A DNA stretch of 64,000 nucleotides from Anaerolineaceae bacterium (GCA_002699125.1 PABI01000002.1:1-64000), one strand, 5' to 3'. Counted from the first letter of the stretch, positions 58,071 to 62,757 are shown. A program made the numbers and translations. The notes: generated by a model from the sequence alone, not told the origin.

Positions 58071-60968
58071 ATGACGCAGTCGCCCCCGGAAAATCAGGAC
58101 TTTCTCAGCAAAACGGTTGAAAACGTCAAAGATATGCCGCCCCCGCTGCGGTTTGGCATCGTCTTTTTTGCCTTGTTCCTCTTTGCTGTCTTGGGAAACG
58201 CAGTGGTGCCTGATGATTTTGTTCTACTCGTTTACCTTCTCTCCATAGGTGTTTTGTTTTTTTACCTCATTTGGGAATACCAGCAGCGCCTCCAGAAAAA
58301 GGACGAACTGGCTCACGAACTGCGCAAAACTGAGCTTGAATATGAAGACCGCAAAGACGAGCGCATTCACGAGCGCGAACTTAAAAAAATTGAGACGCCT
58401 GCGCCTACATCACCACCTGCTAAAATAGTGCCGCCGGATGAGCTGCGCCTCGATTACCTGAACTGGGTGCGCACCCAGGTGAGCGAACTTTCCTTGCTGG
58501 GCGTAGACCCGGAAGCCACGCGCGACGAGCAGGAAGGCCGCCTGCACCTGGACCGCGTTTATACCGCGCTGCTCACCGCCGACGCCGAGGCAGCAAAGCC
58601 GCAGCAGATGGAGCTGTTTGGTCGAGGCGAAAAGCATCTCTCTGCTGTGGCACAACTTAACCAACACAACCGGCTGGTGCTGTTGGGTGACCCTGGCGGC
58701 GGCAAAAGCACCTTCGTTAACTTTGTGGCCATGTGCCTGGCTTTTGAAGGGCTGGGCGAAACAGAACGGGGTATTCAGTTGCTGACTGCACCGCTGCCGG
58801 ATAACGAAGGGAAAGATGAGGAGGAGCGCCAGCCGTGGGATCACGGCGTGCTGCTGCCGCTGCGCGTCATCTTGCGTGACTTTGCCGCCCGTGGGCTGCC
58901 CTCGCCAGACAAGCAGGCCAATGTGAATGATTTATGGGATTTTGTTGAGGCAGAGCTGGCGGCGGCAAACCTGGAACTTTGCGTTCCCTACTTGCAAGAA
59001 CAGTTCATGGTCGGACAGGCCATTTTGCTGCTGGACGGCCTGGACGAGGTGCCGGAGGCCGACAAACGGCGCGCTCAAATCAAGCAGGTGGTTGACGCCT
59101 TTGCCTACAAATACCGCAACAGCCGTATCGTAGTCACCAGCCGCACCTACGCCTACCAAAAGCAAGATTGGGAGCTGGATGGCTTTAAAGATGGGCTGCT
59201 GCTGCCCTTTAGCGCCGGGCAAATTCACCGCTTTGTCGACAGCTGGTATGCCTACACGGCCTGGCGGCGGGAGATGGAACCGGGACTGGCCCAATCGCGC
59301 GCCGATGCCCTGAAGCACGCCGTCTTTAACCAGCCCCGCCTGTACGAACTGGCCGAAAGGCCGCTGCTGCTGACGCTGATGGCCAGCCTACACGCCTGGC
59401 GCATGGGCGAACTACCCGAAGACCGGCAAAAGCTGTATGAAGAAACCGTTGATTTGCTGCTGAACCGCTGGGAGCGGCGGCAGCGGGTGTGGGACGGACA
59501 AAAAGAGCGCGACATGCAGCCCAGCCTGGTGGAGTGGCTAAAAACAGACCGCAGCAAGGTGCGCGAACTGCTCAACCATCTGGCCTATGAAGCCCACCGC
59601 GAACAAACAGACCAGACGCGTACCGCCGACGTGCCCAAACAAAAGCTAATGGATGGGTTGCTGGCGCTGAACCAGAACCCGGACGCCCGCTTTATCCAGT
59701 TGGAAAATTATTTGCGTGACCGGGCCGGCCTGCTGGCGGAGCGTGCTGAGGGCGTTTACACCTTTCCTCACCGCACCTTTCAGGAATATTTGGCCGCCTG
59801 TTACTTTGTGCAGCAGGACCCGGCTTACCCGGAGTCGCTGGCAAAGCTGGCGCGGCATGAACCAAACAAATGGCGCGAGGTGCTGCTGCTGGCGGGAACC
59901 CAGGCCGGCCGCAACCAGGTTTGGTATTTGGTGGAAGCCCTGTGCCCACGTGCGCCGGTAGAAGGACGGCTGGAGGACGAAGATTTGTGGGGAGCGCACC
60001 TGGCCGGGCAGGCGCTGGTGGAAACAATTGAGCCAGACGCACCCCTGAAAGAGCGCAACCAGGAAACGCTGCGGCAAATTGTAGCCGGACTACTGGTTTG
60101 CCTGACAGACAAACGGCTGCCGCCGACGGAACGAGCCATTGCCGGGATGGTGCTGGGCACGCTGGGTGATCCGCGCTCGGACGTGGCTCGTGACGTGCCG
60201 GAGATGGTGGAAGTACCTGCCGGGCCGTTCTTAATGGGCAGCGATAAGGCGAAAGATAAAGATGCGTCTGATAATGAAACGCCGCAGCATGAGGTGACCC
60301 TGCCCGCTTACAAGATGGGCAAATATCCGGTGACAAACGCACAGTTTGCCCGGTTTGTAGCGGATGGTGGGTATGAAAATGAGGCTTACTGGACCAAAGC
60401 AGGCTGGGCGCAAAGAGAAAAACAGGGCTGGACGGAACCGCGCTACAGTGACACTCCGCGCTACAATCAGGCCAACCAGCCCGTGGTGGGGGTAAGCTGG
60501 TATGAAGCCGTGGCTTACTGCAACTGGCTAAAAGCCACCACCGGGCGTGACTTCCGGCTGCCGGATGAGGCGATTTGGGAAAAGGCGGCCCGGAGTACGG
60601 ACGGCCGTATCTACCCCTGGGGCAATGAATGGCTTCCCGAAAATTTGAACAGCAGTGAATCCAACATCAACCGGCCGTCAGCCGTGGGTATCTTCCCGGA
60701 TGGTAAATCACCTTACGAAGCATATGATATGTGTGGCAACGTGTGGGAATGGTGCAGCACGGTCTACGGCCAGAATTATCCTTTCCAGATAGTGGTGTAT
60801 GAACAGGAGATCGAAGGCAGTAACCCTCGACGCTTGCGCGGGGGCGCGTTCTTCTACGATCAGGGGCTCAGCCGCGCCGCGTTCCGGGGCTACCGCGGCA
60901 TTCCCGATTACAGGGACGACGGCGTTGGGTTTCGGGTTGCCGAACATCTCTCCATTTCTGGCTCCTGA
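58071..60968 (+). CDS. DGR target: membrane-anchored NACHT (STAND) NTPase with C-terminal FGE-sulfatase/C-type-lectin-fold domain
   Basis: Two N-terminal TMs; LVLLGDPGGGKSTFVNFVA Walker A; AILLLDGLDEVPEADKR; C-terminal FLMGSDKAKDKDASDNETPQHEVTLPAYKMGKYPVTNAQFARFV...WCSTVY...LRGGAF...VGFRVAE. Confidence 0.93.
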   Translation: MTQSPPENQDFLSKTVENVKDMPPPLRFGIVFFALFLFAVLGNAVVPDDFVLLVYLLSIGVLFFYLIWEYQQRLQKKDELAHELRKTELEYEDRKDERIHERELKKIETPAPTSPPAKIVPPDELRLDYLNWVRTQVSELSLLGVDPEATRDEQEGRLHLDRVYTALLTADAEAAKPQQMELFGRGEKHLSAVAQLNQHNRLVLLGDPGGGKSTFVNFVAMCLAFEGLGETERGIQLLTAPLPDNEGKDEEERQPWDHGVLLPLRVILRDFAARGLPSPDKQANVNDLWDFVEAELAAANLELCVPYLQEQFMVGQAILLLDGLDEVPEADKRRAQIKQVVDAFAYKYRNSRIVVTSRTYAYQKQDWELDGFKDGLLLPFSAGQIHRFVDSWYAYTAWRREMEPGLAQSRADALKHAVFNQPRLYELAERPLLLTLMASLHAWRMGELPEDRQKLYEETVDLLLNRWERRQRVWDGQKERDMQPSLVEWLKTDRSKVRELLNHLAYEAHREQTDQTRTADVPKQKLMDGLLALNQNPDARFIQLENYLRDRAGLLAERAEGVYTFPHRTFQEYLAACYFVQQDPAYPESLAKLARHEPNKWREVLLLAGTQAGRNQVWYLVEALCPRAPVEGRLEDEDLWGAHLAGQALVETIEPDAPLKERNQETLRQIVAGLLVCLTDKRLPPTERAIAGMVLGTLGDPRSDVARDVPEMVEVPAGPFLMGSDKAKDKDASDNETPQHEVTLPAYKMGKYPVTNAQFARFVADGGYENEAYWTKAGWAQREKQGWTEPRYSDTPRYNQANQPVVGVSWYEAVAYCNWLKATTGRDFRLPDEAIWEKAARSTDGRIYPWGNEWLPENLNSSESNINRPSAVGIFPDGKSPYEAYDMCGNVWEWCSTVYGQNYPFQIVVYEQEIEGSNPRRLRGGAFFYDQGLSRAAFRGYRGIPDYRDDGVGFRVAEHLSISGS
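60833..60952 (+). other. DGR variable repeat (VR)
   Basis: 120-bp gap-free alignment to 62619-62738; 20 of 21 mismatches at TR adenines. Confidence 0.97.
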
Positions 60969-61054
60969 ATCCTGTCTTCTGTCTTCTGCTTTTTCTGTTT
61001 TCTAAAAATCTTTCCCTTTTATTACCTTGTCAGGTAAGATTGTGCCCATTAAAA

Positions 61055-61080
61055 ATCTCGGTGCCAATTGGCACCGAGAT
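61055..61080. repeat. 26-bp perfect palindrome downstream of VR
   Basis: atctcggtgccaattggcaccgagat. Confidence 0.9.
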
Positions 61081-61094
61081 CGCAAAAATTTTGT

Positions 61095-61118
61095 TGGGCA
61101 ATTTTGTAAAATTGCCCA
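61095..61118. repeat. Perfect 11-bp hairpin upstream of the RT
   Basis: tgggcaatttt gt aaaattgccca. Confidence 0.9.
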
Positions 61119-62210: not shown

Positions 62211-62553
62211 ATCACCCATCTTTGCCAAACTGTACGACCTGCTGCGCTGGCTGCTGCCGGCCACAACAAAATATTCGCGTGAGTATCGGTTTGGTTTGGC
62301 ACTTCCCACGCAAGAAAACGCTTTTTTGTTACAAAGACATCTGGTATCTGCGGCCAAACTACAAGATGCGCGTGACAGTTCAGACCATTTGCAGCAGGCA
62401 GAGATTGAATTGACGTTGCTTCGTTACAAAGTACGGCTGGCTCGCGACCTTGAATTACTGCGACCCGGCAGCTACGAACACGCCAGCCGCCTCATAGATG
62501 AAATTGGCCGATTATTGGGCGGTTGGATGAAAAAACAAGGTATTGTCAGCTAG
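62203..62553 (+). CDS. Avd-like DGR accessory protein (four-helix bundle)
   Basis: MSESPIFAKLYDLLRWLLPATTKYSREYRFGLALPTQENAFLLQRHLVSAAKL...; ATG overlaps RT stop; position between RT and TR. Confidence 0.85.
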   Translation: MSESPIFAKLYDLLRWLLPATTKYSREYRFGLALPTQENAFLLQRHLVSAAKLQDARDSSDHLQQAEIELTLLRYKVRLARDLELLRPGSYEHASRLIDEIGRLLGGWMKKQGIVS

Positions 62554-62618
62554 TGACCCGAACGATTGGTCACTTGCTGAAATGTAGCATTTGGGTTGGG
62601 TACTCAGCCTGGGGACAG

Positions 62619-62738
62619 CTTGCGCGGGGGCGCGTTCAACAACAATCAGAGGAACAGCCGCGCCGCGTACCGGAACAACCACAACAATCCCGATAACAGG
62701 AACAACAACGTTGGGTTTCGGGTTGCCGAACCTCTCTC
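62619..62738 (+). other. DGR template repeat (TR)
   Basis: AAC-rich repeat matching VR: aacaacaatcagaggaacagccgcgccgcgtaccggaacaaccacaacaatcccgataacaggaacaacaac + gttgggtttcgggttgccgaac. Confidence 0.97.
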
Positions 62739-62757
62739 GTCAGGGTGCCGGAAATGT

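Follow-up and report, generated by a model that had tools for sequence, protein, structure and literature searches.

A 64,000-nucleotide stretch of DNA from an Anaerolineaceae bacterium (GCA_002699125.1, PABI01000002.1:1-64000), referred to here as the window, carries on its forward strand a diversity-generating retroelement (DGR) cassette of about 5.0 kb (57945..62921). The reading we favour, with good though not full confidence, is that the DGR is complete, probably works, and rewrites those loops of a NACHT–FGE sensor, anchored in the membrane, that face the ligand; a short guide most likely sets both the target and the direction of this rewriting. The overall idea is not new: DGR-diversified STAND/NACHT sensors have already been proposed for related DGRs, as an untested idea, by Dore et al. 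2024 (PMC10907252), and this locus adds a member to that group. What the present analysis adds to the earlier reading is a match between the spacer RNA that follows the template repeat (TR) and the end of the variable repeat (VR).

Judged from gene and repeat content, the cassette is a complete DGR, with a target gene (58071..60968, + strand, 965 aa), a reverse transcriptase (RT; 61137..62210, +, TTG start), the accessory protein Avd (62203..62553, +, 116 aa) and the TR (62619..62738, +). This order, together with the GNQTSQ and YVDD motifs of the RT, had been put forward in the original prediction made from this DNA, and the open reading frames (ORFs), Pfam and NCBIfam all agree with it. The RT contains LPIGNQTSQ and YVDD, matches Pfam RVT_1 (E 5e-22) and has a DGR RT, 8UB7, as its best PDB match (E 9e-49). 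Avd is matched by Pfam bAvd (E 4e-20), the PHROG Avd family and NCBIfam DivGenRetAVD (84.8 bits, cut-off 80); its start is likely the ATG at 62203, which overlaps the end of the RT, rather than 62137. In a tree of 72 RTs, made by a quick method, with some long branches and with the Thiohalocapsa PB-PSB1 RTs left out, the window RT falls among DGR RTs, as the original prediction expected, and away from the non-DGR outgroups, i.e. the group-II-like second RT of the same genome (C133) and a retron-type RT. It sits in a Chloroflexota clade adjoining cyanobacterial DGR RTs, which are the nearest named groups outside Chloroflexota; the closest row is a metagenomic RT (86%), and the relatives found in species genomes are mostly Chloroflexota. 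The DGR rows read GxxxSQ wherever the motif is cleanly read, whereas the two outgroups, C133 included, read GxxxSP. Chloroflexota DGR RTs themselves show two motif types, GNQTSQ and GNLTSQ when loci L134-L150 are compared with the window and L020-L044.

The VR (60833..60952, +) aligns with the TR over 120 ungapped columns with 21 differences, 20 of them at TR adenines, and our recount is identical to that of the original prediction. From TR to VR the changes are 11 A>G, 8 A>T, 1 A>C and one C>A; with 33 adenines among the 120 TR bases, the chance of at least 20 of 21 differences falling at A is P = 3.6e-13. When the whole window was scanned blindly for repeat pairs with such a bias to adenine, this pair alone came up. 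The 8.05-Mb genome holds just two copies of the repeat, viz. the TR and the VR, and a genome-wide search found no further VRs, TRs or DGR RTs. The TR adenines fall in 20 codons, nearly always at the first or second base, and these mutable codons correspond to target residues 928-951 and 958; by computation, mutagenesis at TR adenines cannot create a stop codon and could encode about 6e18 proteins.

The sole difference away from adenine, C at 62732 in the TR against A at 60946 in the VR (column 114), was described in the original prediction as a C/A difference at the 3' edge. The base change itself is confirmed, but its reading as an edge effect gives way to that of a recurring TR/VR distinction: in related loci, too, the TR/VR differences concentrate at the last bases of the repeat. 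The expected distinction between the initiation of mutagenic homing site (IMH) of the VR, whose end ACATCTCTC lies at 60944..60952 (+) with the distinguishing A at 60946, and its TR counterpart (IMH*) is carried here by this pair of bases. Across the loci compared, the lone mismatch appears not as noise but as a recurrent distinction that the spacer RNA matches in its VR version.

The activity of such elements was gauged from three pairs of near-identical public contigs of related DGRs. L125 and L126 differ at 21 positions in 13,041 bp, every one of them in the VR at TR adenines; L079 and L081 show 16 of 17 differences in the VR at TR adenines; and L073 and L075 differ at 16 VR sites, each of them a TR adenine, and by 34 substitutions elsewhere in 5.4 kb. 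VR variation in these close pairs lies at TR adenines only, in agreement with the original prediction. Because near-identical relatives differ almost only in this way, the DGR family is, on the evidence of these contigs, active, and we infer that the DGR in this very cell is active as well. Among five target homologues, the mutable codons are identical in 20 of 95 cases and the other VR codons in 82 of 90. A 65% identical homologue comes from Ca. Leptofilum (Promineifilaceae). This genus figures in a paper about filamentous Chloroflexota from sludge, which bears on the multicellular or aggregate-forming hosts that mark the sensor group of Dore et al. 2024. The frame of this gene (P0006, Ca. 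Leptofilum sp.) is apparently shifted within the VR, through an error of homing or else of sequencing.

The spacer 3' of the TR (62739..62905, +) is predicted to be a structured RNA, with a fold z of -3.3 and a consensus fold, from seven aligned loci, that shows compensatory changes at 19 of 45 pairs. Within it, the segment GAGAGATGT (62787..62795, +) is perfectly complementary to the VR end ACATCTCTC, and has one mismatch to the TR end ACCTCTCTC, precisely at the distinguishing base. In the consensus fold this segment is paired to the TR end, with that base alone left out of the pairing. In close relatives the base covaries, a VR T (L054, L055) occurring with a spacer A and a VR A (window, L053, L020) with a spacer T. 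In a set of 84 DGR loci, the longest exact match of the spacer averages 8.06 nt to the locus's own VR end, 6.43 nt to its own TR end and 6.25 nt to the VR ends of other loci, and the own-VR excess was reached in 0/5000 permutations; with 63 dereplicated loci the count is again 0/5000, and VR is better than TR by 41 to 10. Matches extend up to 14 nt. On the 5' side of the segment, the 42 guide loci show differences at 17/3088 non-A columns and 600/1096 A columns; within the segment, 154/405 columns differ. The DGR of Bordetella phage BPP-1 has the same feature, since spacer positions 48-56 pair perfectly with VR 118-126, but against the TR form two mismatches and a wobble. Many BPP-1-like viral DGRs keep the match (GTGGTCA/TGACCAC) while their TR ends differ, with VR ahead of TR by 23 to 1.

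From these comparisons we infer a guide function for the segment. Stated generally, the proposal is that the DGR spacer 3' of the TR carries a short guide, perfectly complementary to its own VR IMH and mismatched to the TR end, which acts as primer and address so that guide RNA and mutated cDNA together make up a single unbroken antisense strand fitting the VR only; we regard this as an evenly balanced proposition. Such a guide would explain the TR-to-VR direction, the lasting non-A differences at the 3' end and possible aiming at a new site. A role of the match in antisense regulation of the 3' end of the target mRNA, rather than as homing primer or guide, seems to us improbable: the segment is complementary to the sense strand and hence to the target mRNA too, but the BPP-1 segment ends at A56, reportedly the cDNA-priming base (Naorem 2017), and non-A TR/VR differences start where the segment starts, as the primer model predicts. 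We also give very little weight to the match being a by-product of selected pairing between spacer and TR end for priming, with the VR merely resembling the TR. The consensus fold does pair the two, yet it leaves exactly the distinguishing base unpaired; the segment fits the VR better in 55 loci and the TR better in 13 (P 1e-7), and of the 48 segments that are 8 nt or longer, 46 span positions where TR and VR differ, so that this explanation is disfavoured.

The target protein consists of a transmembrane (TM) hairpin, a coiled coil, a NACHT NTPase, a helical region and a C-terminal FGE-sulfatase/C-type-lectin domain that contains the VR. The two N-terminal TM helices, the NACHT domain and the C-terminal domain are those of the original prediction, and the hydrophobic helices (about 26-46 and 49-69), Walker motifs (Walker A GDPGGGKS at 206, Walker B LLLDGLDE at 319) and Pfam matches (NACHT, residues 202-392, E 3e-5; FGE-sulfatase, residues 709-957, E 4.8e-62) bear them out. 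The AlphaFold model has a mean pLDDT of 87.4, and the C-terminal domain matches FGE/EgtB-type structures in the PDB and, by sequence, the DGR protein TvpA (2Y3C, E 1e-5). The catalytic Cys pair of FGE enzymes would presumably lie in the segment equivalent to the VR. The target has no Cys after residue 895 and hence none in the VR segment, and for this reason the domain probably keeps the fold as a binding scaffold, enzyme activity being unlikely. Since the two TM helices lie close to the N-terminus, the NACHT and FGE domains are expected on the N-terminal side of the membrane, in the simplest case within the cytoplasm.

In the mechanism we propose, the TR and its structured spacer would be transcribed together, and RT and Avd would copy the TR with errors at adenines. 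Priming at the 3' end of the spacer segment would make guide RNA and mutated cDNA one antisense strand that is contiguous with the VR and does not fit the TR, and it is most likely this complementarity to the VR end that would set target choice and direction. A 2026 paper (PMC12875486) describes the entry of mutated cDNA into the VR as incompletely understood, and cDNA as primed at IMH* by an internal spacer adenine, with which A56 of BPP-1 would accord. Replacement of the VR by the mutated cDNA would then give access to up to about 6e18 protein variants. A variant that happens to fit might bind its ligand, whereupon the NACHT NTPase could switch and the protein cluster; the TM hairpin may then act as effector, by membrane damage or recruitment, and the infected cell would die or arrest, making defence a candidate function. 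Related RTs with a TR/VR pair serve NACHT-FGE, EAD1-NACHT-FGE, TIR-TPR-FGE, CHAT-FGE, ATPase-TPR-FGE and PKD-FGE targets, and NACHT-FGE homologues begin with TIR, EAD7, EAD8, NNH2 or phosphoesterase domains. An effector–switch–sensor design predicts just such exchangeable N-termini on a C-terminus that stays constant and diversified, and this exchange, with the architecture itself, supports the NLR-like sensor of the original prediction, for which a defence function is plausible. Among the relatives, L041 has two VR-bearing NACHT-FGE genes and one TR, and L040 has three NACHT-FGE genes, with candidate VRs, around one RT.

Several observations weigh against this account. The evidence for VR variation comes from contigs of relatives, not from this species. 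The NACHT match scores 24.3 bits, just under the Pfam gathering score of 26.7; close homologues exceed that score, and the match is, by this comparison, real despite falling short. No effector or defence genes were seen adjoining the target. The exact-match guide is not universal: by this test it is absent in L125 and in the Legionella DGR, and it is weak in the Aeromonas-phage-like clade (1021/5000 permutations, 226/5000 dereplicated), where VR is still ahead of TR, and within the BPP-1-like clade it shows conservation rather than covariation. Taken by itself, the window gives a 9-nt match in 2.7% of shuffles, and the case for the guide therefore rests on the cross-locus comparison.

Two other explanations accept the DGR as real. 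In one, the target is a signalling or self/non-self receptor (e.g. for cell-cell recognition in filaments) with NACHT as the switch, which we judge unlikely but deserving of real weight. It would suit a target that has no fused effector enzyme and none seen beside its gene, as well as the PKD-FGE target of one relative (1518 aa), which looks surface-exposed, and PMC10907252 cites Vallota-Eastman 2020 as having argued for signal transduction in cyanobacteria. However, the TIR, CHAT and EAD1-NACHT fusions served by close RT relatives are typical of conflict systems, and the EAD7, EAD8, TIR and NNH2 N-termini of NACHT-FGE homologues also speak against it. It is likewise unlikely that the element is intact in sequence and inactive in this lineage, its VR having been diversified earlier and now fixed. 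A single locus with a single VR, absent from sister species, could be read in this way, but all ORFs are open, TR equals VR at all non-A columns except one IMH base, the spacer is structured and conserved, and related elements differ between near-identical contigs.

The closest known counterparts are DGR 3 and DGR 6 of Thiohalocapsa PB-PSB1 (RT clade 5D; PMC10907252), cellular DGRs with RT, accessory gene and TR whose targets likewise join a central STAND/NACHT NTPase to a C-terminal diversified CLec (C-type-lectin)/FGE domain. The present locus differs in having one target rather than two, no peptidase seen nearby, the order target-RT-Avd-TR and a Chloroflexota host, and clade 5D is at most a possible place for its RT. 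The BPP-1 DGR (mtd, avd, TR, brt) shares the RT-Avd-TR-VR machinery, the IMH/IMH* differences and the complementarity of part of the spacer to the VR IMH, but its target is a phage tail protein and its TR lies between avd and brt. TvpA of Treponema denticola shares the FGE-like C-type-lectin domain with a VR, but is an outer-membrane lipoprotein and not an NTPase. Bacterial NACHT/Avs antiphage proteins have a similar plan of N-terminal effector (putative here), NACHT and C-terminal sensor; those known have fixed sensors, whereas the target here has a diversified one and is matched by no PADLOC model.

The cassette is absent from the three sister species examined, and none of these congeners (G028 and G029 among them) has a DGR RT, which is present in 24 of the 58 genomes searched in the order. 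The GNAT gene found here beyond the cassette comes immediately after lgt in G029; in G028, lgt is followed by DUF433-DUF5615 and then other genes. Between the window and G047, the RTs share 76% identity, but the Lgt proteins only 49%. Given this difference and the absence from congeners, the cassette was either gained, probably by transfer, or lost repeatedly, and transfer fits better. A search of plasmids for the TR-spacer DNA found none. The DUF433-DUF5615 pair, probably a toxin-antitoxin pair, adjoins the cassette here (57352-57944) and lgt in G028. Elsewhere in the genome, decayed pieces of a NACHT-FGE gene, 68-70% identical to the target, lie at G000:C138:71397-71738 (L188), with no RT, TR or DGR.

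Directly 3' of the VR is a heptad repeat, TYCTGNN (60956..61003, +), with the target stop codon inside its first repeats. Such heptads lie no more than 70 nt from the VR end in 33/65 DGR loci (L020, L034 and L055 among others), against 5 other clusters in 458 kb. A genome-wide repeat was ruled out, as TYCTGNN is rare in its own genome, and the heptad is therefore DGR-linked. A further heptad stretch, followed by GGGGGTCCAGGGGG and resembling the post-VR stretch of relatives, lies at G000:C186:46265-46290, with no target or DGR match nearby. An inverted repeat was sought just after the VR and a perfect palindrome was found (61055..61080, unstranded, 11-bp arms, AATT loop; DNA fold z -5.0 over 60950-61136), yet it lies 102 nt downstream of the VR, whereas the BPP-1 hairpin lies 4 bp after it. 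Rfam gave zero matches across the window, which also encodes a bacterial alpha-2-macroglobulin with Big_5 domains (19270-25491, 2073 aa) and two multihaem cytochromes (6336-11667; cytochrome c7/c3, MtrC-like).

The guide idea is not mentioned in the keyword passages of open papers, a coverage outside which the key BPP-1 spacer papers lie. The spacer-VR match bears on how mutated cDNA enters the VR and, if it is functional, DGR targets would be predictable from the RNA and the system could be re-aimed by changing a few bases. The locus itself would offer a clean, single-target Chloroflexota case in which targeted mutagenesis rewrites the recognition face of an NLR-like receptor of prokaryotes, in a family whose members join the same module to NACHT, TIR, CHAT and EAD1 parts.

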